A DNA stretch of 64,000 bases, taken from contig CM060188.1 of NCBI GenBank assembly GCA_030549335.1, positions 70,152,696 through 70,216,695 of the forward strand. The letters are read 5' to 3'. Of this stretch, positions 1-18,595 are shown in pieces. Every line of letters starts with the position of its first letter. Position 1 is the stretch's first letter. Position numbers and translations under genes: made by a program. Origin of the DNA: Pontederia crassipes. Lineage: Eukaryota; Streptophyta; Magnoliopsida; Commelinales; Pontederiaceae. Below the pieces are notes generated by a model, which ran no database searches, had not been told where the DNA came from, and saw nothing but the letters and a program-made list of their open reading frames with translations.

Positions 1-637
1 TGTGACCAATCTTTTATATATTCCTATTTTTTTATTAAAGAAATAGTAGTTTGGAAATTTTTGGGCGAAATAAAAAAGTAAGTGATACTTTTACCATAAC
101 TTTTGTGCCTTCACCACTTGTCCTTTGCTTTGTATGCGAGGCACACCTGAAAAGTAATTATGTAATATTTGGTACCCAAATTTTTTTGGGTCATAATTTG
201 TTAGACAATGTTCCTTTCGGAATCCAAATCATATCATATTGTGTTGATTTTCTCATTTTACATTGATATGCATAATGCCCATAAAATCCACATGTAAAAC
301 ATTTAAAATGTGATTTTCTATCATAGAGATGATTCCTAAGATTATTTTTCTTTGCATAAGATATAATCTTATATATATTTCAAAGAGACATTTTCTTTCT
401 TTACTTTTTCCAAAGAATATGCTAGTTTTACAACTTCACATGCATGATTTCCAAAGTTTCAATTTCATTTTTTAGTTTTTCATTTTTAAAAAAATATGCA
501 TTATTTTACTCTTTTAATTTTTCAATTTCATGTATTAATGTTTTATTTTCCTCTTTAATTGAAAAATATCTTTTTATAAGAGAGGAGAGTTCTTTTTCAC
601 ATCTAAAGAAAGAATTTCTTCAGAAGAGTTTGATGAG

Positions 638-1603
638 TCATAATTTGGGTGGGTTAGAGATTACCTCATCGTCGTGTGCCATCAAGCATATGTATGCTTC
701 ATCACTAGAGGAGCTTGATGAACTACTTGTTTCACTAGACTCTTCATATTTTTTCTTTTTACCATTTCGAGATTTTTCTTCTTTGTGATGTTTGTATGAT
801 TTTCTTGTTGGCTTCTCGTTCTTGTATTTCTTTTTAACTAACTTGAGATACTTATCTAATTTTCTTGTGTAGAGTGCGGGTTTCTTTTCATCCACTTGCT
901 CTTCACTTGAATCTTCTTCTATTATATTTGCCTTCAATGCCAATGTTTTCTTCTTGGGAGCTTTTTCACTCTGTAGATCTTCTTGGATTGAGATCTCATA
1001 GGTTAAAAGTGAGCCAATAAGATCGTCAAAGTCCAATTTGTTCAAATCCTTTTCTTCGATCACGTTCCTCTTCGTATGCCATTTGGAGGAGAGAGACATG
1101 AGAATCTTTTTCACTTTTTGGGGGTTAAATCTTGGCTCATCCAAGGAGGCTAAGCCATTTAAAATATCGTTAAATCGAGCAACCATATCATTTATAGATT
1201 CATTTTCATGCATCTTGAAAGAATCATATTGATGATTTAGAATATTCATTCTAGATTTTTTAACTTTATTGGTTCCTTCGTAAGTAGTGATGAATTTATT
1301 CCAAATCTCAGTTGCACTTTCACAATTTGAAATTCGATTAAAATTCGTTGAATTCAAAGCACAATAAAAAATATTCTTTGCTTTCCAATCCAATCTCGAA
1401 AAAACTTTCTGTCTTTCATCATGTTCGGAAGATAATTTTTCATGTAAATAATAGCCTTTTTCAACAATATCCCACATGTTTATATCAATAGAACATATGT
1501 AGGCTTGAATCCGAATTTTCCAAGATTGAAAATTTGATGCATTTAAAAGTGGAGGATGACTAATTGATTGTCCTTCGACAAAAACAAATGCACTTGATGC
1601 CAT
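638..1603 (-). CDS. copia gag polyprotein segment (UBN2/DUF4219-like)
   Basis: An open frame of 321 residues begins with MASSAFVFVEGQSISHPPLL and continues with the NFQSWKIRIQAYI region characteristic of plant copia gag. A helical gag body follows (residues about 30-210). The C-terminal third is basic and serine-rich (SSETSSSSSSSSDEA near residues 290-303). The frame lies 100 bases inside the LTR/PBS, the expected place for gag, and a zinc knuckle lies further downstream. Gag would form the virus-like particle. This is a transposon gene, not a host gene. Confidence 0.85.
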   Translation of the reverse strand: MASSAFVFVEGQSISHPPLLNASNFQSWKIRIQAYICSIDINMWDIVEKGYYLHEKLSSEHDERQKVFSRLDWKAKNIFYCALNSTNFNRISNCESATEIWNKFITTYEGTNKVKKSRMNILNHQYDSFKMHENESINDMVARFNDILNGLASLDEPRFNPQKVKKILMSLSSKWHTKRNVIEEKDLNKLDFDDLIGSLLTYEISIQEDLQSEKAPKKKTLALKANIIEEDSSEEQVDEKKPALYTRKLDKYLKLVKKKYKNEKPTRKSYKHHKEEKSRNGKKKKYEESSETSSSSSSSSDEAYICLMAHDDEVISNPPKL

Positions 1604-1718
1604 AGCTCTTAAGATTGTTAAATCTTAAAACAAACGATTGAATCTTAAAAATGGTTAGATCTAAAAATAAGATGATTCAAAGAAAATCAAAACAAGAGCA
1701 ACCCGCTCTGATACCAAT

Positions 1719-2871
1719 TGTAGGATCCCAAATGGTACCAAGGGAGGGGGATGAATTGGTGTTTAACCAAAAACATCGATTTCACAAAATTCGTAGCGGA
1801 AGCACAAAACCGATTCTTAAAACCTTTACAATTCAGATTATAAACACAATATGAACGGGGGGAGAGAGAGAGAAAATCAAACGAAGACACGGTGATGAGG
1901 TTCGGCCACACCTTGACCTACGTTCCCGCTCCGACTTCTCGACCTTGAGACCGCCGGAGATTCCACTAGCACTTCCTTTGTTCCAAATGAGGCAAGAAAG
2001 AAAGTCCTTTACACCATTGTCTTTTTTCCGTTTCGAGAGGCAAGGCAACCTCTCCTCCTAGGAAACTAATCTATTTCTCTCGCTCAAGAGGTAAGATTTA
2101 GAACATCTTTTACACAGGAGCTCTCTCTAATTTTTCTGAACAAAAGTGTTTCTCTCTTTTACAATTCTATGCTCACAAGAAGAGAAGAGAGAAATAATGA
2201 GAAAGTTATAAAATGAAAACTCCAAGAAAATGATATCTTTTTGATAACTTAAAGCTTTTCTTCAATGAGTGAATGTGTGCTTTTGCCTCTGGCTTTGGCA
2301 CTCCTTATAGCCTTCAATGTGTGGAAAATTTATCCAGAAATTGTTTCACAAATTCCTCCTTCAAATTTGACCGTTACTGTTCATTTGACTTGGAGGCCGA
2401 TCGATCGCACTTCTGGACCGGTCAATCGGTCTATGTGATCGTTGCACGTTTTCTTCAACTTCTGCGCTTGATCGGTCGACCGGTCCGTCGACTGATATCG
2501 GCTCAACATCGTCCGGAGCAGGGTCAGTAGTTATCGGTCGACCGACATCTTCTATTCGGTCGACCGGTACATCTCGACCGGCCTTGTTTTCTTCGACGTT
2601 GATCGACCTGCACTCTTTTGATCATAACTTTCTGCACAGTTATCCAAATTAGATGATCTTGGAGTCTATAGAAAGCTAACAGAATTTTCTACAATTCTGA
2701 CATTCCACTTTTATAAAAAACTAATGAGATTAGTGAAAATTATTTGATCAAAGCGTAGTGCATAAAGTTATCCATTTTTCTTTAAACTTTTTAGCATTTC
2801 AACTTTAATCTTTTGAGGTTTATTTCATCAAAATATAATTTTATATGTCATTAAAACTTTGACCCAACACT
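1719..2871 (-). repeat. 5' LTR of the left-edge copia element
   Basis: On the minus strand the repeat starts TGTTGGGTCAAAG at about 2871 and ends CCTACA at about 1719, directly before the initiator-Met primer-binding site. The TG...CA ends and PBS spacing support a complete LTR of about 1.15 kb. It carries several CGGTCGACCG-type palindromes between about 2395 and 2600. The partner LTR is outside the window. Confidence 0.8.
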
Positions 2872-4165
2872 CCTACTCTATGTATTCACCTCTTCTGAAT
2901 TCGGTGTGACATTGATTATTATATATATTAAATGCATATTTCGATAAGTTTATATGAAAATTATGTGTTGAATGATTGATGAATTGATGGTTCATTGGAG
3001 AAACTTATGTGAAGTGTTACGAATCGCATTTATAGGATGCAATCCTATTATGTCTGAATGAGTATCTGATATGATTCATCTTCTGATATTCGAGATATGA
3101 TTGTTATGTGATGAATCATACATCGACATATGTTTGCATTTGCATATATGATGATTGTAACCAAGTGCTATATCATAGATCATGATGGGAGCCACCTCTA
3201 GAATCCAATGCATCATTCTGTTCCCCAGAAATGGAATAAGATAGGAGAGAGCTAAGTTTCATTCGGACCTAAGTGCTATACCGTGAGTGTGGGAGCCACC
3301 TTTAGAATCCATATAGGCCACCTCTAAAAGCCATCTATCACTTTCTGATATGTTCCCTAGAAATGGGATGAGATAATATAGAGTTAAATATTGTGCGGAG
3401 CTAAGTGCTACACCAAGAGGGTGGGAGCCACATCTAGAATCCGTATGAGCCACCTCTTGAAGCCATCTATCGACTATACAAATTGGCTTGGTGATCCGTG
3501 CATTCATATGAGAGTGTTTCATTTGCATACATATGGATACGATTTAGATTTAGATGATATTGTTTGCAACATTGAGTGTGATGCTTCTACTTACTATGTT
3601 ATATATGTAATTATCAAATATACAAAAATACCTATTTTGATATTATGATTATCGCACGATTTTTCATGTCTCTCCAAATTTATTAGTTGGTAACACATAG
3701 ACTATGCTGCGTTTAGCTCACTCTGTTGTTTCCAATATTTTTCAGATTAATATAGCTATTTGGTGATCGTGGAAGGTGATAGTCTTAGACAGGTTCTATA
3801 ACGATCTTGGTGGTAAGACATTAAGAAGAAGTGTGTCTCTCATGTCCTTCTATTAGGATGTCGAGAAGTTTGGTTATGTGGAATGCATATGTAATATTTT
3901 GTATTTTGTAAGAAGGCAAAATCATTTTATGTCATGCAAAACTTAAGGATTATTGGTCTGCTCTAAATTATCCGTTTAATGTTAATTTTGTTCTTATGTA
4001 AAAAAAAGTTACATCATGTTTCCACAACTTTTTTCAATTTTATTTGATCATCCATAATTAGTCACGAACTCGAGTTTAAATGACGGTTTAAATCGGGGTT
4101 GTGATAGTTATAGTATCAGTTATATGATTGTCCGTAATGAGTCACGAACTCCAATTTAAATTGGG
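2872..4165. repeat. Worn LTR-like intergenic remnant with internal repeats
   Basis: No coding potential was recognised. The stretch contains three diverged copies of a unit around GGGAGCCACCTCTAGAATCC (about 3173-3480). Near its right end are two related copies of a GTCACGAACTC block (about 4060 and 4138), the second finishing in GGGTCATGACA, which resembles the end of many gypsy-type LTRs. I infer an old gypsy LTR fragment, but no start, primer site or partner LTR is visible. Confidence 0.35.
3173..3480 (+). repeat. Three-copy direct repeat, units about 100-130 bp
   Basis: Units start with AAGTGCTATA or AAGTGCTACA at about 3173, 3271 and 3403. Each continues into GGGAGCCACCTCTAGAATCC or a close variant. 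Copies 1 and 2 then carry a CCCCAGAAATGG/CCCTAGAAATGG block. Spacing is uneven (about 98 and 132 bp), so the array has diverged. Small open frames across it are by-products of the repeat. Confidence 0.7.
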
Positions 4166-4822
4166 GTCATGACACTAGATATCGTGCGACGACTAGGCGC
4201 ATAGGCATCTAACCAAGTTTATTTTGAGTTTGCAGTGGAAGTTTTATGGTCGAGATAACTATGTCGAGAGTCGCTCTTATAGACATTTGATCATGGACAT
4301 GACTAGAGTGTTGAGCTACTCGTCATGGGACCATGGCATTAGTGTGTTGCGATGGTAATGCAGACGCTTGAACGCTTAAAGTCTGAAGGGGCAGCCGAAG
4401 TACCACGGGGCATCGAAAAAGGTCACCGATGGGGGTTGCCACCCCACGCTCAAAGTCAGACACTAATATTAAATTAAGGCTTACTTGTGTTATATATGAT
4501 GAAACATAACATATATTTGAGCTTCGAAAGACACTAAAGAATTCCTCCCAATGTACCGTAGGTAAGGAAGTGTTATTACAAAATGAGAAATGTAAAAGAC
4601 ATATTCTATGGGTAACGCCATATAAGTTGATCATTCATAAGGATGACCTCACAAAGATAAATGCCTTAAGGGCATATAACTTATTACTCCGCAATATTAT
4701 GCAGTGCGGGGCAACTGTGTGTGTTCCATGATTCTGCACTGAGCGACCGAGAGCTATAAGTTGAGCGGCACTGATGCCATGAAGTTTCGCGCATCGTGTC
4801 ACGGGAAAATGCCCCGTGACGC
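4166..4822 (-). repeat. Lone LTR, same family as the LTRs at 6715, 24328 and 27972
   Basis: The reverse complement aligns along its length with the LTRs at 24328-24985 and 27972-28635. Shared landmarks include the inverted CACGGG block at the start, CAACTTATAGCTCT, CATCCTTATGAATG, GTACATTGGGAG, and GGGGTGGCAACCC in mid-LTR. The order runs right to left. No internal region or second LTR adjoins it, so it is most simply a solo LTR left by recombination. Clean target duplications were not found, and it is more diverged than the paired copies. Confidence 0.75.
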
Positions 4823-5035
4823 ACACGCCGTTGGCCGCGAGCTCATGGGCACACCGCTGTGCCGCATGCCCACACGCACCGCTTGGGCCGAGAGCGTGCG
4901 CTGCTGGGCCGTGAGCTCACATTCCCGTGCACGCGCCATTGGGCCGCGCGTGTGCGCACTACTGGACGCATGAGCGCACTGCTGGGCATGTGAGCTGGGC
5001 CACGTGCCTCCATCGAGACCACGCGTGAGGCTATT
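4823..5035. repeat. GC-rich imperfect repeat block
   Basis: About 210 bp of CpG-rich sequence sits between AT-rich neighbours. Short related units such as GCGCACTGCTGGGC and GGGCCGTGAGCTCAC recur with changes. No convincing frame or known element was recognised. It begins exactly where the lone LTR ends, so it may be the old insertion site or a remnant of adjoining element sequence. Confidence 0.45.
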
Positions 5036-5117
5036 CTTTTCCTCTTTTTTTAAAGCAGAGAGCCACCTCGATTTTTTTAAGTAAATAAAAACTTTTGGAG
5101 CATCTTACATGACTTTA

Positions 5118-5754
5118 GGGGGACATTTATAGTATTACCTTTTCACATTATCTAGTAATATGCATTGCCCAACAAAAATTACCAGCGATGTACATTACCT
5201 TATTTATTATGTACAAACTTTGCTAGCAATTTAAATGTCACTATACAACTTTTACTAAAATATCTTTTATCACTAATATTAAGTTAAATATTATATAATT
5301 CAACTAAAAACTCAAATAAAATTAATAAATATAATTGCAAATATTTCATATCTTTTTAATTGAAAATAATGGTAATGTATATAATATTTAAAATAATAAC
5401 TAAATAATAATATCAAATTCATGTGAATAACAATAATAAAATAAATTTTAAATAAATTAATATTATTAATTATGATGATAATAATATTATTTGTTGTTGT
5501 TATATAAATTTTTATATTATTTTTATGTTTTATTTGTCTAAGATTGGAAAGGGCAGAAATGAAAATAAAATAAAATCTGGTTGGCACCATCCTCCTAGTC
5601 AATGTGGATTGCCACTTTATAAGCAATCTGCATTGCTAGAAAATTTAGATTACCTACAAATTAAAATAAAGTAAACAAGATAATATGGTGGGCCCAGATA
5701 ATTTAACTTCAGATTACCAGTAATGTAGAAAGATTACTTGTAAGAAAATGCCTC
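5118..5754. mobile_element. MITE, probable PIF/Harbinger (Tourist-like) type
   Basis: The left end GGGGGACATTTATAG and the reverse complement of the right end GAGGCATTTTCTTAC continue as imperfect inverted repeats for about 45 bp, sharing TACC/AATC, ACATTA and GGTAAT/AGTAAT blocks. TTA lies directly outside both ends (5115-5117 and 5755-5757), matching the TTA/TAA target duplication of PIF/Harbinger elements. The interior is AT-rich and non-coding. At about 637 bp it is large for a MITE but in range. The ends are diverged, so it is probably old. Confidence 0.55.
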
Positions 5755-5757
5755 TTA

Positions 5758-6377
5758 ATATTAATGTAGAAATTGATAAATATAATATAGAGGTTCACGA
5801 AGTACCTCAATTGCACGTGGCTGCTCCACGAATAAGTTAGGGATTGCGGGGTTACACTCATACACCACTCTTGACTACTTCACTTACTTTCCTCAAGTGC
5901 ACCAAGGGACCTATTTTTATAGAGGTATTTTGGCCTCAAAAGACCAAGCAAATGAGGCTGCCAAAAATGGGGAGGGTGGTGGTAGGAGTGGCACCCGACC
6001 ATGTTCCCGGCAATCGGCCCCACCCCAAATTCTCGGTTCAAGGGGAATTCTATTCCCCGCTCCGATCCCCGCGGGGCCTCGAACTTCCGCGAGGACTCTG
6101 ATTTCCCAAACACCCGTCGTCCTCTTCTAGTAAGAACCGCCACTGCCTTCCTCAAATGAGCTCCGCTGTCATGGCCCTCCTCCGTGGCTATCGTTGCCCT
6201 CCTTCATGGTGGAAGGGATTGGCCGTCAGGTGGAGGGATCCACTGTCAGGTGGAGGAAAAAGGAAAGAGATGAGAACGATCATCGATCGTAGGTAGAAGA
6301 AAAAATGTAAATGGAGCAACCGACATGTGGTCCCATTGAAGAAGAAAGAGAATAGAGTAAGGAGATAGGGTTTTTGT

Positions 6378-7955: not shown

Positions 7956-8069
7956 CTAAAGTGGTGAGCATTTTGCTCCTTACTCCCTTGGACATCGACG
8001 GTTGGAGTTTTTGCACGGTTCAGCAGGCCGGTTCAGTATTATGTCAGCCGGTCCAATGCTGGATCATCC
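7956..8069 (+). repeat. Left terminal inverted repeat of the MULE
   Basis: Matches the reverse complement of 13709-13835, with the right copy carrying about 12 extra bases around its TCGTAGATCGTGCG word. Landmarks are CTAAAGTGG at the outer edge, TTTTGCTCCTTACTCCCTTG, and GGCCGGTTCAGTATTATGTC. Similarity stops after GGATCATCC. Confidence 0.85.
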
Positions 8070-8159: not shown

Positions 8160-8500
8160 CCCTCTGACGAAAAAACTCCGTCGGACCTCTTCGCCTTGCC
8201 GCATTCCTTGCCTGTGTTGTGTGGACGAAGGATGCTCTCTGATCTTCTACGTCGGATCTCTCTACATTGCCTCCTTGCCCTATTCCTCGCCTGTGCCGAC
8301 GAAGGGCCTCTCTGCCTTGCGAATTCCTCGCCTGCGCCCACCAATGTTCTCACTGCCTTGCAACCACACGACCTCTCCGCGTTGCAGCCGTGTGGTCGAA
8401 CGATCTCTCCGTCTTGCCCCATTCTTCGCCCGCGCCGATGAATGACCTCTCTGCCTTGAAGCCGCACGGTCGAACGACTTCTCCGCCTTGCTGCTGAAGC
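8160..8500. repeat. Subterminal GC-rich repeats, left side of the MULE
   Basis: Roughly five imperfect units built around CTCTCCGCCTTGC followed by ATTCCTCGCCTGCGCCGAC, spaced about 50-90 bp apart. The several overlapping open frames on both strands come from this repeat and have no recognisable domains. Subterminal repeats are common in plant transposons and can bind the transposase. Confidence 0.6.
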
Positions 8501-9108
8501 ACATAATGCTGTGTAATGCTAGTTTCATCAGCATTCTTTCTTTTGTTGAACATACTTCTGTTCCGTATGCGAAAAACATAGAACCAAAGCATATCATTCC
8601 TTAATCCACTCTTATATTACAATGAATAGGGGAGGTCCCACTTGGAATGTGGCTACCGGGCATCATGATGGAATGGTGTCACTGAAAAATGAAGCCAGCG
8701 CTATCCTCCTCGCATTCTGGCAAGAGATTCAACGTCAAGGAGCTCGTAGTGCTGTCAAGTAAAGAATTAAGTTATCTCGTGCATTATTACTTTAACTTGC
8801 ATGATTTCAAGGGTGCCAAAGCACATAGTGAAGCATAGAATTATGTAATACATAGTGTACCGTGTGATAAAGATATTGTGTAGCATTCTTATTTTCCCAT
8901 GGAGCTAATTATATGATAAATTTGTTGTATATACATGTGAACCAATATTTGAGAATTAAATCATATAACAAATCTATAATTTGTGGTTCAAATTATATAT
9001 ACTGCCAGGTTCTCCGCTCTCCTTAGGTTAAGTAATTTGTTAATTGATAGTGCATGCTACAATTTTTGTGTGTTCTAAATGTCCACCCATAAGCTTTAAT
9101 CAGGTATC

Positions 9109-11500
9109 ATGGACACGGAAGATGTTGAATTTGAATCTATCCAAGAAGGGATGGAATTTGACAATTGTGATGAGGAGTTGCTTGTGGAAGACAATAACGA
9201 GAAGGTGAATCAAGATTCAAATTATGTGAAATCTTTTGATCTACCAAATCCATCCATTGGCAAGACATTTGAAAGTGATGATGAAGCATACAAATATTAT
9301 AATGTGTATGCCAAATTAGTGGGTTTCTCTGTTATCACATAAGTCCATAGTCACAGGAAATATTATCAATAGAACATTTGTTTGTTCTAAAGAAGGACAC
9401 AAAGATTTGAAGAAAGGTGTCGAAAAGATGTCTAAACAAAGAAGAGAAGTTAGAGATAATTGTCTTGCTCATTTGTATGTTGACTTAAGAAAGGATGGCA
9501 AATGGGAAGTAAGAAAATTCCATGAAGAACACAATCATCCTCTGACAACTCCCTCGAAGGTAAAATTTTTACGTTCACAAAAAGATTTCTCGACTACTTC
9601 TAAAGAAGCAATTATGAGCCTACACAAGTTCGACATGGGTTCGTCTAGAGCACTCAATATGTCCGGTGAACTAGTCATAACAACTCAAAATTGTATTGAC
9701 CATTTGAGAGCACAAAGAAAAGGCAACTTCAATTCAGAATGTCTAAATATCATATCATATTTTTGAAATAAGTTGCGTGGTGATGCAGGTTTTTTTGATT
9801 GATGGGAATTGGATACAGATGACACTGTAATGAATTTCTTTTGGGCCGACGACAGGGCAAGAAATAGTTATCTAACTTTCGGAGCTGTTGTTGTATTTGA
9901 TACAACATATCGAACAAACAATTTAAGAATGCCGTTTGCTCCCTTCACCGGAGTCAATCATCATAGAAGGTCATGTTTATTTAGATGTGCTTTATTAGCC
10001 GACGAAATTGAAGAGACTTTTTATTGATTATTTACCACATGGGCTGAATGTATGAATAGAAAACACCCCACTTGCATCATTACCGATCAAGATGTTGCGA
10101 TGGGTAATGCTATTCGTAGAGTGTTTCCACACACGAAGCACATATATTGCACCTGGCATATTGCAAGGAATGCAATGATTCATCTACAAGATCTTTATGA
10201 ACTTGCCGATTTTAAACATGAATATAACAAATGGCTTTATAAGTGTACAAACATAGAGATGTTTGAAGATGGGTGGCTTTCCTTGAAGCAGAAATTTCAT
10301 ATTCCAGACGACCATTGGTTAGAGAGTATGTACAACAAGCGTAGACAATAGGTTTCATTATATTATCAAGATCTTTTTTACTGCAGGCATGCGTACTACT
10401 CAAAGAGCCGAGAGTATCAATGCATTTTTTGATGAATTTGTTAATGCAAACACATCATTATCAAACTTTGTACATATGACAAGGCAATTATAACTCACAG
10501 TGGATTAGAAGAACGAGAAGATTATCATACGATGAATTCTACTCCAGTGTATATGTCAACTAATCCATTAGAAGTTGAAGCAGGCAAGATATACACACAT
10601 AATGTGTTCTGCTTGTACCAAAAAGAATATGCACAAACAATCAACTTATATGGACGAAAAATTTTGAAGGATGATGACAAAACTTTCTACTCAATATATC
10701 CTGTGCAAGGAATAGATGAAGGTAAACATATCGTTGAATTTAGTCAGCAAACAAATATTGTGATCAAATGTTCTTGCAAGAAATTTGAACAAGAAGGGAT
10801 TCTTTGTTCTCATATTCTAACTATTTTCCACAAGAAAGGTGTGTGATTTTTACCCAAGGAATATGTTCTTCATCGTTGGACAGTGAATGCATGATATGCA
10901 AATGGTCGTGTGATATATGATGCAACATCATGTTCTATTGATTCTATTACTCCATTTTAGAAACTAGCTTGGAAAAGCAATCTTTGACGATTCGAAGAAA
11001 TGAGCTTAATTTCTACAAATCATTTGCAATTTGGAGCTCCAATAATAAATGATGTCATAAGTAAATTTAGAGAATTCAAAGTGCAAATACACCAGTAGAT
11101 TCAAGTCAACCATGTATTAGTGGAATACTTGCAAATCAAGTAAGTCAAACAAGTGTTGTCAACATAAAAGAAACTCAATTCATCATACACGATCCGACAC
11201 GTGTAAAGGCTAAAGGTAGATCATGAAATGTTTCAAAAATTAAATCCGCGGTTGAAATCTTGATAGCAAAAAATGATTTCAAGAAGAGAAGTTGCGGACA
11301 TTGTGGAAAGAGCGGACATGATAAAAGAAAATGTTCGGCCCTTAAGGTAATCTCATAACTTTGTCAACGACATGTTTTATACTATTCATCCCCATAATTT
11401 TCTACTATTCTTCTAATTTTGAATTGAATCTTGTAGGTTATCGATGGTTGTCGCAATGAAGAGGAAGATCTCAACAATTCGAACCTTGTGGAACTATAGG
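9109..11500 (+). pseudogene. FAR1-type MULE transposase, decayed
   Basis: Begins MDTEDVEFESIQEGMEFDN, followed by the FAR1 DNA-binding domain (FESDDEAYKYYNVYAKLVGF). A TAA stop follows VIT at 9340, with a frame change shortly after. The FAR1 domain resumes from about 9407 (NCLAHLYVDLRKDGKW, EEHNHPL). The MULE transposase core follows: VVVFDTTYRTNN with the first catalytic Asp at about 9900, CIITDQDVAMGNAI with the second Asp at about 10080, and HIYCTWHIARNAM. A SWIM zinc finger (CSCKKFEQEGILCSHIL) lies near 10765-10820. A CX2CX4HX4C zinc knuckle (CGHCGKSGHDKRKC) lies near 11290-11335, and a last small exon ends VEL at about 11500. Several more stops and frame changes occur. The TIRs show it belongs to the transposon rather than to a domesticated FAR1-RELATED SEQUENCE host gene. 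Confidence 0.85.
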
Positions 11501-12488
11501 TAGGTTTGTTGGATATTATGGCAATTGTTTTGTTCATTCAACTCAGTCCAGTCTTCATGACAGTGTTGTATGATTATCTAATATGCTTTATCATCCCTTA
11601 TTTCACTACGTTGTGTGGATGATGTGTATGGCGACCATAATCTCATCTGCACCATTCTCCTTGTTTCACAAATGGTTGAAGAAGCTCCACCGCAGCTTCA
11701 CAAATGGTTGAAGAAGGTCTACTGCAGCTGCTTAAAATTATTCTTGTTTTTCCTATTTTTGGTGCCCACCGCATTGCCACTGTATCAGGAACAATGCATA
11801 AAATTATATCCTAGTTTGTGTGTTTATTTTATTAGACCTTGCCCTTTCTCATATTGTTGTACGTCCTTGATATCATAGGACTGTCGATATATATATTTTG
11901 ATATCGTACTAGCTAAATTTGGTTTGTCATTATCAGTTCTATATGTTAATTACTTTGACAAAGCTTATATTCTTGTTTGTTTTACCTCGTTCTCTTTCTA
12001 TAATTATAAGATTCTTGTGCCCCAATCAGGTGGCATGACCACAGAACCTATGTATTGTTCCTATGTCCCAGTTAGTTTATGTATCGTATGATCACATAAC
12101 CATTTCAGGCAGCAACGATAGCAAAAGTTGAAGCAGCAGCCAGGGAGGGGGATAGAGAGAGATGAGGGGAGGGTTATTGGAATATTGGAGAATGTGATCC
12201 TGTAAATTGAGTAAGTTGTCTTTAATTGGAGTTGCTACCAATTGTATTTAATCATGTAAGAACATGGACAAAGCTCCAAGCTTTGGGATCTTGATGCAGT
12301 TGTTCTTTCGCAATTCCACTTGCCAAATTTCTTTCCAATGGACCATAAGAATTTAACACACCAAACATGATTTACACACAAAAGAAACCAAAAGCTTCAT
12401 TCTATGAATACACAGAAGAAAAAAAAACATTGTAGCTTTGTACATATAAGAGAATTCTACAAGTACTAGGACAATCCATACCATGATA

Positions 12489-12892
12489 TCATATAAAAAA
12501 GAACAACATAGCTATAACAACAACTATGATAAAAAGAAATTTACAACATAATTTATTTTCATTCCTATTAATCCTAACTCCATTGTCGACTTCATTGTTA
12601 ACTTCTTCCATCCTATCAATTTTTTCTAATAATCCATTTATCACTTGCATAGATCTTGGCTCAAAAGATGAATCCATCCATTCGAAGTAGTCACATGCTC
12701 TTGATTGCTGCAAGATAAGGAAATGAGAATTAAGACATCATAACTTATATGATAATGACCTTTTCTATTGAGATAGTAAAGCAAACTCACGCCGTAAAAT
12801 CGACAACTATAAAATCTACGATCGAGATTTCGGTCAGTTCAAGATGTCTTAATCACCACTTCTTGATGGCAATAACACTTAGGCAATTTCAT
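12489..12892 (-). pseudogene. GRF-type zinc-finger protein with C-terminal membrane segment, carried in the MULE
   Basis: Two exons on the minus strand: 12892-12791 (34 codons, donor GTGAGT) and 12707-12489 (acceptor TTGCAG). The in-phase join gives about 106 residues. Exon 1 starts MKLPKCYCHQ and carries TDRNLDRRFYSCRFYG, the core of a GRF zinc finger. Exon 2 continues with ACDYFEWMDSSFEPRSMQVI and a short charged helix. It ends in a hydrophobic segment (CCKFLFIIVVVIAMLFFFI), a probable tail anchor. This layout matches the small plant At4g04775-like GRF proteins. One TGA interrupts the zinc finger, where relatives usually have Arg, so it is marked pseudogene. It runs opposite to the transposase, about 1 kb downstream. 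Its function is unknown. Confidence 0.7.
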
Positions 12893-13379: not shown

Positions 13380-13680
13380 GAACCTTTTACCAGACTCTGA
13401 GGTCGGTTAGCGACGGGGTGACTTCGATTGGCAGCGACGTGTGTGAGCGGCGACAACCGGAGCAACTGCAGTTACAACAGTGAGCGGCGGCGTCTTAGAT
13501 CAGCAGCGACATCTACGAGCGGCGACGACAGCGAGCGGCGGCAACTTAGATTGACAGCGACGTGTGCGAGCAGCGACAATTGGAGCGGGCAACAACTGCG
13601 AGCGTCTGCGGTGGCAAGCGTATTCTCAGATCTAGGGCATCGGTGGGAAGTGGTAGGTGGAAATCTCGTGCACAAGAACT
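13380..13680. repeat. Subterminal GC-rich repeats, right side of the MULE
   Basis: Repeated GAGCGGCGAC and GCAGCGACGTGTGCGAG words at short intervals, directly inside the right TIR. This mirrors the position, though not the sequence, of the GC-rich array at the left end. Open frames here are composition artefacts. Confidence 0.6.
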
Positions 13681-13708: not shown

Positions 13709-13835
13709 GGATGATCCAGCGTTGGATCGGCGGACATAATACTGAACCGGCCTACTGAATCGCGCAAACTCTTCCAACCGTTGATCGTAGATCGTGCGTC
13801 CAAGGGAGTAAGGAGCAAAATACTCCCCACTTTAG
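13709..13835 (-). repeat. Right terminal inverted repeat of the MULE
   Basis: Inverted partner of 7956-8069, reading on the plus strand from GGATGATCCAGC to CCCCACTTTAG. An (AT)n run begins about 20 bp outside it. Confidence 0.85.
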
Positions 13836-13999
13836 TGGGAAGCAACAACATTAAATTCATATATATATATATATTACCTTCAATTAGTATGAGAAGATTA
13901 ATATGATTTAGTCAAAGATTTGATTAAAATAAGATTTTAATATTTATAATCTAGATGCTGCGATGTTTTCTTTACTCTATTGAATAAGTTTCGTAGATG

Positions 14000-15100: not shown

Positions 15101-15354
15101 CCTGCTTTCATAATTTTCTCATAGAGACTCCATTATTGATATAAAAATTTAACTTTGAATTGTATAATTAAATTAAAAGCCTCAATTACATGTCGCAGAC
15201 TTCTTTCATATTTCAAAGATGGAAAAATGATAGAAAATAACAAAAAAATGAGAAAAAAGATAAACATAAATGATGAGTTGAGAAAAATTTTTGAAACGTT
15301 TCAATGGATTATGAGATATAGATATAGATTATTTTTTATTAAATAAAATTAATT

Positions 15355-16348
15355 TTGGAATAAATAAAATATTATGGAATATCAATAGTCAAATATTATG
15401 TTAACTAACAAATTTAATGTTGATTAATAAATAATCGCATGAACTAATTGTTATTTTTAATACTAAATTGCTAATATTTTTTATAAAAAATTCAAAAAGT
15501 AAAATCATAAAGCCATGCTTTTGATTAATATATAATATAAAGCCATGCTTCATGGTAATTTTGTAATTATAGTGAGGAGCTCTCTCCTTTCATCATTCAT
15601 CCATTCTTTTTTAATTTTTTATTATTTATAATAAAGTATTAGCAAATTAGTATTAAAGATATCAATTAGTTAATACAATAATTTATTAATCAACATTAAA
15701 ATCGTAAGTTATGATAACATTTGATTATTCATATTCCATAACATTTTATATATTGCAAAAGGAAAAAATATTTAACAAAAATAAATCACAAATTGATATC
15801 ATATTTTTTTACTTTATGATTTTACTTCTAATTTTTTTGTAAAAAATATTACCAAATTAATATTAAATCTATATATAATATAAAGTCATGCTTCGTGACA
15901 ATTTTATAATTATAGCGAAGAGCTCTCTCCTTTCACTATTCATCCATTCTTTTTTGTAGAATTTTTTTATAATTTATAATAAAATATTAGCAAATTAATA
16001 TTAAAGATATCAATTAGTTAATGCAATCATTTATTAATCAACATTAAAATTGTAAGTTATGATAACATTTGACTATTCATATTTCATAACATTTTGTATA
16101 TTTCAAAAGGAAAAAATATTTAACAAAAAATAAATTGCAAATTAATATCATATTTTTTTTACTTTATGATTTTACAATTTTAATGTTGAGTAATAAATGA
16201 TTGCATTAACTAATTGATATCTTTAATATTAATTTGTTAATATTTAGTTATAAATAGTAAAAAAAATTACAAAAAAATGGATGAATAGTGAAAGAAGAAA
16301 GCTTCTCACTATAATTATTTATATTATATATAGATATAATATAAATGT
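15355..16348. repeat. AT-rich foldback repeats: two direct and two inverted copies of one unit
   Basis: A unit with ordered landmarks (TATAATATAAAG, ATTCATCCATTCTTTTTT, GATATCAATTAGTTAAT, AACATTAAAATTGTAAG) occurs directly at about 15525-15870 and 15873-16165. It occurs inverted at about 15355-15480 and 16167-16345. The arms near 15985-16055 and 16167-16238 pair almost perfectly. The 15873-16345 part therefore folds as one long hairpin with a loop of about 110 bp. A further diverged copy lies at 44696-44893. The TCTATATATAATATAAAG edge resembles some Helitron 5' ends, but no 3' hairpin or CTRR end was identified. A foldback MITE fits as well. Confidence 0.65.
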
Positions 16349-18513
16349 GCATAGCAAGTTAGGTTCGGACCGCGGCGCAAATTTATATTATCGTCCCTGA
16401 TAAAGTTTGACAATTTTACTTGGGAATTTGGAGTTATTATTGTTGGCATATGTTGCTATATATATTTTATACTTCGAGAGATCCAACGCCTGCAATCTCT
16501 CTCTCCTTCTTAAAAAAATATTAATTTATGATGTCACGATGGTAACACTACTATTAATTAATTAATTATCACGTGTGAAAAGTTTATTTTATTAGTTTTC
16601 GGTATGTCTACATAAACGAGTGTCCCGTCATTTAATGATTGAGTCGTCTCATTAATTTAAATTTAAATTAATCAACTGAATAATTTTTAAATTAATCTCG
16701 AGTAACATAAATTTTTATTATTATTAACAAATAAATAAAGAACGAGGGATAGTCTTTTTTTACTTACACGATTTTACATTTCATTCATACTCATTTGATT
16801 TTAAAATGCATTACCATCTATAAAAAAATCCTAAACACATATAACGGCCGTAGTAAATAAATAAAAAGTAAAATCAATTTAATATTGATGCGGATTGAAT
16901 TTTTTTTTAAAATCAATCCCCGATATCTGAGAAGCGGTGTTGACGACTCAATTTGCACGACGCTAAAGAATGCACTGTTATCACAGGTTGAAGGTCAATC
17001 CACCATTAAACCTAACTAATCCGGACAAGTCACTCCGGATCGCGTACCTGATAGTGATAGGTGAGTCCAATAATTCGAATATGATTAAGCGAGGTAACAC
17101 TCGACCCAATTCTTGTTGGGACGGATCGAAATTATTTTGATACGCTGCCCGCACTCGGTTATCATAAAAAAATGCATCTGTAGAGTTTATACGTATAGTC
17201 CAGGATTAAAATTTTATGATGAATATTAATATAAGAAGTTAAAATAATTTTACTTATAATTGTGTGATGATGATATCATCAAATAATTTAAATGATTATT
17301 TATATAAATTTGAACATGTAAATATTTTTTGAATTTATACCTATTACATCACTAAATAAGATAAAATCATAAATATAATAGTTGAAATGAACAGTCAAAA
17401 TTACTAGGAAACTAAAAAAAATCCCATGGTAAATATCCATAACCATATAAATGATTAAAAACCACTACTAAGTTTAAGATCATAAAATAAACTTGAAATT
17501 ATAAAAGTTACATAAAATGATACAATCACTGAATCACAATCGTTGAATGTTTTAGAAAAAATATGAAAATAATTTATCGTAAAAAGACAACATTCTTTAT
17601 TGGGATGAAGATTTGTTACTCCTACTGGACACAATTAATTCCGTTTCGGCCGAAAAAATAATTTGGGACAAAATCTGATCCGATCCAAGACATTTTGGAT
17701 CGAGTAAAGAGTTCAAATAGCTGATGATTATAAAGAGTTCAAAATCTGACGATACAACAAAAATTATTTTTATATAAAAAGTTAAAATAAATCCATTTGT
17801 TTGATGTTATAGTGACACAATCAAATAATTTAAACAAGTATTTATATTTTAAATATTGATTTAGTCATGAAAGGTAAATGATTAAAAAGGTAAATTTTTA
17901 TTTATTTATATATTTTTATAAGTATTTATTTATATATTTTTATTTGATGAATAAAAAGATAAGTGTTCCTCTTTTTAAAAAGGGACATCATCATTAAGTA
18001 AATTTAGTGCTTATTTATCTTTAATCTTAGTATTGTTTTTTAACTTAATTTTATTAAAATACGAAAAATCAAAATAATTTATTTTGAAGCTTATACTTGT
18101 TCCTAAATCCATAGAAATTCAACCGAGCTCACTACACCCGAAATATTTTAGATGTGGTTCGAATTTAAATCAAACCTCAAAATCTTCTTGTGGGCCGGAA
18201 ATGAATTGGAAGCCCATACTTCATAAGAAAAAGCCCAGGTTTCGTTTGATCGGTGAGTGGATCAGGTAAAGGGACACGAGCGCTAAATTTATTTCAGAGA
18301 GTTGTATCATTATTTAAATTTTCAGTGTAAATTACTTGTAAATCGTGTCGAGATTCAAATATACGATACAAAAAGGGGGTCTACAAGAATATAATAAAAA
18401 AAAATACTACAAATAATTTTTAATGCAAAAATATGGGGTTCATTATTTTCCTCGGGTCATTATAGACGTACTTGAAGGTTGAAAATAAAAAAGTGACAAT
18501 ACAAAAAATAAAT
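16349..18513. other. AT-rich intergenic stretch, no gene seen
   Basis: About 2.2 kb before the tRNA gene. No coding frame with recognisable content was found. A short, less AT-rich segment (about 16920-17160, with TCCGGACAAGTCACTCCGGA) stands out but matches nothing I recognise. The rest is AT-rich, low-information sequence. Confidence 0.6.
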
Positions 18514-18595
18514 CGTGGTCGGCAGGATTCGAACCTGCGCGGGCAGAGCCCACATGATTTCTAGTCATGCCCGATAACCACTCCGGCACGACCAC
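18514..18595 (-). tRNA. tRNA-Ser (anticodon AGA)
   Basis: An 82-nt gene read on the minus strand. The acceptor stem GTGGTCG pairs with CGACCAC, and G is the discriminator base. The D-arm is GCCGGAGTGGTTATCGGGC. The anticodon stem CATGA/TCATG closes the loop CTAGAAA, giving anticodon AGA. The long variable arm expected of serine tRNAs is present. The T-arm GCAGGTTCGAATCCTGC contains the B box. No intron is present. A CAAA lies just upstream, as in many plant tRNA genes, and a T-rich run lies just downstream as a Pol III terminator. The stems look intact, so it is probably functional. Confidence 0.97.

Follow-up and report, generated by a model that had tools for sequence, protein, structure and literature searches.

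A two-exon gene encoding a GRF zinc-finger protein, located antisense between the transposase gene and the right inverted repeat of a FAR1-type MULE in Pontederia crassipes, is almost certainly an integral and conserved gene of the element. The locus lies in a 64,000-nucleotide stretch of contig CM060188.1, referred to here as the window, in which both the GRF and the transposase copies are broken. As an overall explanation it is very probable that the GRF gene is the B gene of this MULE, a conserved second gene for which we propose a helper role.

The GRF gene of the window extends from 12892 to 12489 on the minus strand and comprises 106 codons. Exon 1 (12791-12892; 102 nt) runs from the ATG to the splice donor and is followed by an 83-nt GT-AG intron (12708-12790; GTGAGT...TTGCAG), while exon 2 (12489-12707; 219 nt) encodes the last zinc ligand, a linker and a hydrophobic C-terminal tail that ends in a TGA stop. 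The junction between the exons is in phase 0, consistent with the matching splice phases noted in an initial sequence-only reading of this DNA, which had also counted one interrupting stop; the single in-frame stop is at codon 18 (12839-12841), in exon 1. With X placed at the stop codon, the spliced 106-residue product exceeds the Pfam cut-off for the GRF domain (PF06839; 34.1 bits against a cut-off of 25.9, E=2.9e-8). It retains the four zinc ligands (CxC...C...C), and its peak 19-residue hydrophobicity is at residues 88-106, the extreme C-terminus, in agreement with the proposal that a GRF finger leads into a hydrophobic tail.

The two genes are enclosed by inverted-repeat pairs (7956-7993 with 13798-13835, and 8010-8069 with 13709-13768), confirming that the GRF gene is antisense to the transposase inside the MULE inverted repeats. 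The left terminal inverted repeat (TIR; 7956-8069, plus strand) pairs with 13709-13835 at 81% over 127 columns. The right TIR (13709-13860, plus strand) is defined by this pairing and, at its outer end (∼13860), by comparison with sister copies; the start codon of the GRF gene is ∼0.8 kb inside it. In the sister copies the TIR begins with a GGATTTAAT-like tip, which lies outside the edge of the left repeat in the window, where the outermost ∼23 bp are missing or replaced. No target-site duplication (TSD) was found at the window copy, the left end of which is eroded. The broken transposase gene (approximate limits 9109-11501, plus strand) contains FAR1 (9320-9766; PF03101, 67.6 bits), MULE DDE (9803-10027 and 10028-10351; PF10551, 44.6 and 50.5 bits for the two pieces) and SWIM (10445-10846; PF04434, 29.4 bits) domains, a CCHC-like motif being read by eye at ∼11293-11334, and it aligns with the sister copies up to 11501 or further. 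The FAR1, DDE and SWIM domains, which are in pieces in the window, occupy one open frame at the loci L029, L030 and L031. This domain make-up suggests that the family is Jittery-like. A search of the PDB with the L030 transposase gave no match.

The sequence-only reading had held that the GRF gene has decayed less than its neighbour, a view that does not survive when the lesions are counted per codon. The GRF gene contains one stop in 106 codons and the transposase three in 312 aligned codons, with at least one frame change (open reading frames 9100-9342 and 9320-9766). Comparing 1/106 with 3 or 4/312 gives a Fisher P value of 1.0. The GRF gene thus has fewer stops because it is shorter, the rates per codon being alike.

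A DNA search of the 1.13-Gb assembly with the GRF gene returned at least 43 matches (the best 40 of 359 candidates were scored), and 20 further copies were retrieved with up to 10 kb of sequence each. In 17 of these the opposite strand carries a transposase, or the remnant of one, that precedes the GRF gene in its own reading direction and is directed toward it. The other three (L016, L017 and L018), which possibly represent non-autonomous elements or solo remnants, displayed no transposase within the retrieved flank. Alignment of the more diverged subfamilies to the window is restricted to the two genes or their vicinity. Both genes lie between inverted repeats in 12 of the 20 copies, and six (L011, L012, L013, L014, L019 and L028) have perfect 9-bp direct repeats at the tips of the TIRs, consisting almost entirely of T in L011 and L012. 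A TSD of 9 bp fits the 8-11 bp expected of the MULE superfamily. The inverted-repeat search found no bracketing repeat in L010, L015, L016, L017, L025 or L027, only a simple repeat in L018 and a 1.2-kb inverted duplication in L023. Across the 20 copies the exons are conserved and the intron has diverged, and the gene structure is therefore not a product of chance. A GT donor is present in 16 copies and an AG acceptor in 17, and the spliced frame is open in seven (L009, L021, L022, L023, L024, L026 and L027). Exon translations show that all four zinc ligands are intact in 15 copies; they are lost in L016, L017, L018 and L026, while L015 has no exon 1.

The same position of the GRF gene recurs beyond the retrieved copies. 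The genome searches scored the best 40-150 of 359-3,983 candidates and all counts are thus lower bounds. A first comparison was between 125 listed FAR1-type transposase loci and 149 listed GRF loci, for which 40 of the 43 rows of the DNA search were used, omitting three partial pieces of loci already included. Among these listed loci all 31 transposase-GRF pairs less than 10 kb apart had the GRF gene downstream and antisense, with a median gap of 2.8 kb, compared with a mean of 0.3 pairs and a maximum of 2 in 200 trials in which the GRF loci were placed at random. A wider list of 178 GRF loci, from which rows repeating an included locus had been omitted, yielded 35 pairs for the 125 listed transposases, 34 downstream-antisense and one upstream-antisense; in both comparisons the counts follow the merging of neighbouring rows. 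Sister MULEs thus carry the GRF gene at the same antisense place, a check proposed by the sequence-only reading, in 17 of 20 retrieved copies and 34 of 35 listed pairs. Among the matches listed, 90 of the 125 FAR1-type and 50 of 131 MuDR-type transposase loci are without a GRF partner within 10 kb, but this says little because the lists hold the best candidates only; indeed, when seven transposase loci with no listed partner were examined, three (L030, L031 and L040) proved to have a GRF gene. None was found at the other four, in ∼4 kb at L029 and in a 2.2-kb slice at the expected place at L038, L039 and L041, and the GRF gene is not universal among these MULEs. L029 (G000:C15:47431500-47439400) encodes an intact 701-residue FAR1/MULE/SWIM protein (4091-6193, minus strand) and bracketing inverted repeats were likewise not detected there; it is perhaps a domesticated FRS-type gene.

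Selection on the GRF gene was assessed in three subfamilies (window/L009/L012, L019/L021/L023 and L024/L026/L028). Between subfamilies dN/dS is 0.15-0.34 for the GRF gene, at dS values of 0.47-0.99, and 0.12-0.31 for the transposase, which answers the suggestion that the two genes be compared in this way. Six pairs, all but one spanning two subfamilies, were tested for the contrast between synonymous and non-synonymous changes in the GRF gene, which is significant in each (Fisher P=7.8e-7 to 2.2e-4). Within subfamilies dN/dS ranges from 0.11 to 1.29 for the GRF gene and from 0.32 to 0.76 for the transposase, a pattern as expected of an active lineage shedding dead copies. The GRF values of 0.71-1.29 inside L024/L026/L028 may reflect dead copies, of which they would be expected, but weak constraint would give them too. 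Distances of the two genes are strongly correlated (Mantel r=0.922; none of 9,999 permutations reached this value) in the 13 loci, from 23 with GRF codons, that offered 70 or more codons of the GRF gene and 250 or more of the transposase. These data show that the GRF gene is under purifying selection at a level near that of the transposase. The sequence-only reading had left it between a second MULE gene and a captured host gene; its antisense place in sister elements and its purifying selection alongside the transposase speak for the former.

A relative of the GRF gene at L032 (1997-2290) lacks the intron, its exons being joined precisely where predicted, and the best explanation is that it was copied from spliced RNA. 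It follows, in the same frame, an open stretch judged Ty3/gypsy-like by eye, where Pfam recognized only GRF, and has its own stop further on; here a transposon gene was apparently acquired by another transposon. Conserved splice sites and this one processed-looking relative, broken by a stop, together suggest that the GRF gene is spliced.

Pfam hits across the genome included a second, longer kind of GRF gene (GRF/coiled-coil). At L036 such a gene is located between 356-bp inverted repeats, opposite a transposase of the MuDR type (PF03108, 26.7 bits; SWIM, 32.5 bits; PF10551, 26.1 bits, just below the cut-off of 27.6), with no FAR1 domain in the pieces of the locus that were scanned; no TSD could be fixed at the repetitive flanks of this element. 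At L037 a 172-codon frame, 168 residues from the first Met, comprises a GRF finger, a long helix and, close to the C-terminus, a hydrophobic segment. AlphaFold, with four alignment rows, modelled a confident long helix at residues 77-167 of this protein and the GRF part poorly (mean pLDDT 67.6). A GRF gene is within 10 kb of 81 of the 131 listed MuDR-type transposases, downstream and antisense in all 81 cases and with a median gap of 1.2 kb. No pair among the listed loci combined the transposase of one type, FAR1 or MuDR, with the GRF gene of the other. In one-against-one comparisons the alignment of the two types of GRF protein begins in the finger and continues into the linker (E=1e-14 and 6e-15), and dN/dS of the MuDR-type gene is 0.27-0.31 over the first 90 codons in three pairs. 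The arrangement is thus common to two MULE lineages, having been either inherited from a shared ancestor or recruited more than once.

GRF domains of repair proteins bind single-stranded DNA, and the finger is also present in TOP3A, a repair/recombination protein. To our knowledge, the repair enzymes NEIL3 and APE2 do not combine a coiled coil with a C-terminal membrane tail. The closest solved relatives of the protein encoded at L009 are the GRF domains of NEIL3 (E=2.8e-6 and 1.9e-5), and a profile of three MuDR-type proteins and the L032 copy likewise selected NEIL3 (E=3e-4 and 4e-4), with APE2 next (E=0.13). What can be aligned with NEIL3 (PDB 7omk and 7jl5) and APE2 (5u6z) is the zinc ribbon, ∼45 residues. 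The tails of four FAR1-type products have 19-residue mean hydropathies of 3.00-3.26 and end 0-2 residues from the C-terminus, the best segment of the L037 protein (2.45) being 13 residues from its end. Judged by this composition, the hydrophobic C-terminal tail probably anchors the protein in a membrane. Membership of the SNARE family was considered and rejected, as the scores against PF05739 (19.1 and 19.9 bits) are below the cut-off of 26.8 and the match is taken as a chance one, to a helix that runs into a hydrophobic tail. A different use of the GRF finger is apparent at L034 (1063-1572) and L035 (925-1530), both numbered on the reverse complement, where host-like genes, ERI1-like by eye, join an exonuclease-like part to the finger.

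We know of no GRF finger in MURB of maize MuDR, and MURA is not known to us as a FAR1-type transposase. The element resembles MuDR in that the latter has two oppositely read genes, for the transposase and a helper, and 9-bp TSDs (PMC9168764, PMC2563033). The convergent second gene under purifying selection is likewise a mudrB-like feature. The second genes recognized in MULEs include mudrB, antisense PMD genes, vanB/vanC and Abermu ORFR. In PMC6446971 the Jittery group (group 36) is described with an N-terminal FAR1 domain, a C-terminal SWIM or CCHC motif and TIR lengths overlapping those reported here, but is tabulated with one ORF, whereas the present element also has the antisense GRF gene; the TSD of that group is 8 bp where stated there and 9 bp elsewhere (PMC9569675), compared with 9 bp here. 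Abermu type II elements similarly have a second ORF (ORFR), located between the transposase, to which it is antisense, and the 3′ TIR, with Ka/Ks values of 0.39-0.56 (PMC9168764). In contrast to the present element, Abermu is nearer to MuDR, its ORFR proteins are dissimilar across distant plants and in one species ORFR is upstream (same source). MuDR-type MULEs of groups 47-50 also contain an antisense accessory domain or gene, although theirs is a plant mobile domain and not GRF (PMC6446971). The term 'grf' is absent from PMC6446971, from PMC9168764 and from PMC8599713, which covers FAR1 genes in 80 plants, and no paper linking GRF fingers or genes to MULEs was found in the open-access literature. 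Second genes in MULEs were thus already known, while one of the GRF type is new as far as that literature shows.

With respect to function, the GRF gene, downstream of and convergent with the transposase and starting near the other TIR, would encode a protein whose zinc ribbon binds single-stranded DNA, by analogy with the GRF domains of repair proteins, and whose tail would fix it at the nuclear envelope or ER. A tail-anchored protein of these dimensions could have access to the inner nuclear membrane, where it would be exposed to the nucleoplasm. There it would serve as a helper of transposition, most likely promoting reinsertion of the excised DNA, the role that genetic work assigns to mudrB in maize MuDR. 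The model draws on reports that MuDR excision requires only MURA while insertion needs both mudrA and mudrB (PMC2563033), and that Jittery, which has no mudrB homologue (PMC9569675), excises without reinsertion (PMC6446971). Evidence to the contrary comes from Os3378 and Muta1, which transpose in yeast with one gene each, and from Abermu elements that were active recently although they lack the antisense ORFR (PMC9168764); TED is called autonomous although it, too, lacks a mudrB homologue (PMC9569675). Judged by these analogies, the role in reinsertion is a possibility that we put forward tentatively, and that may well prove wrong.

Two other functions are serious alternatives. It may encode an anti-silencing or regulatory factor comparable to vanC of Hiun, an accessory MULE gene with anti-silencing function (PMC6446971); chromatin or RNA would be conceivable targets of a zinc ribbon. 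A membrane tail would be odd in a chromatin factor, and the solved GRF relatives are DNA-repair proteins, and we consider this function rather unlikely. Those same relatives, NEIL3 and APE2, favour a repair or protection factor that would shield excised ends or single-stranded gaps and keep damage low, with the result that the host tolerates the element, but that would have no direct role in insertion. It explains the membrane tail no better than the helper model does and, like anti-silencing, is credited here with a low probability.

The remaining explanations deny the GRF gene any part in the life of the MULE. A single capture of a host gene, since then a Pack-MULE-style passenger of no use to the element, has in its favour the frequency with which MULEs capture host genes (PMC6446971) and the existence of host-like GRF genes in this genome, such as those at L034 and L035. 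Neutral cargo, however, would not retain splice sites, zinc ligands and tail, nor does a passenger accord with purifying selection between subfamilies, co-divergence with the transposase, the same orientation in 34 of 35 listed pairs and the identical arrangement in a second lineage; this explanation is very improbable. A one-off capture, the outcome that the sequence-only reading had set against a second MULE gene, is rejected in view of the many copies in three diverged subfamilies, 31 pairs versus 0.3 under random placement, purifying selection and a related gene at the same position in a second MULE lineage. Ancient capture from a host may nonetheless be the origin of the GRF gene. Least credible of all is a host gene family that merely happens to be located near MULE remnants. 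The absence of a transposase from the flanks of three of the 20 copies is in its favour, but TIRs with 9-bp duplications surround both genes in six copies, and these TSD-flanked TIRs, with the same excess of pairs over random placement, refute a host gene beside MULE debris for the bulk of the copies.

The B-gene interpretation provides MULEs with a second gene that has a recognizable domain and is kept in many copies of two lineages, so that its biochemistry can be guessed at and tested. The interpretation also offers a testable reason for some FAR1-type MULEs excising without reinsertion. In its broadest form it would hold that the general 'B gene' of plant MULEs encodes a GRF/coiled-coil/tail-anchored protein, a membrane-tethered binder of single-stranded DNA that enables reinsertion in FAR1-type and MuDR-type elements alike, a generalization that is speculative and more probably false than true by a wide measure. 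If true, MULEs that lost the GRF gene, such as Jittery, would excise without reinsertion, and numerous GRF-type membrane proteins in plant annotations would be products of transposons. Annotators should be aware that a plant gene for a GRF zinc finger with a membrane tail may belong to a transposon.

Several features in the neighbourhood of these elements were also recorded. Short minisatellite-like tandem repeats are present just within each TIR of the window element (8282-8361 and 13477-13577). Adjoining the MULE, positions 15310-16349 contain AT-rich nested direct and inverted repeats with a spacing of 348 nt, which resemble a MITE cluster. At L022 a reading frame containing WRKYGQK (1249-1737, plus strand) is located near the GRF-bearing MULE remnant, and the window encodes a tRNA-Ser (AGA) at 18514-18595 on the minus strand.
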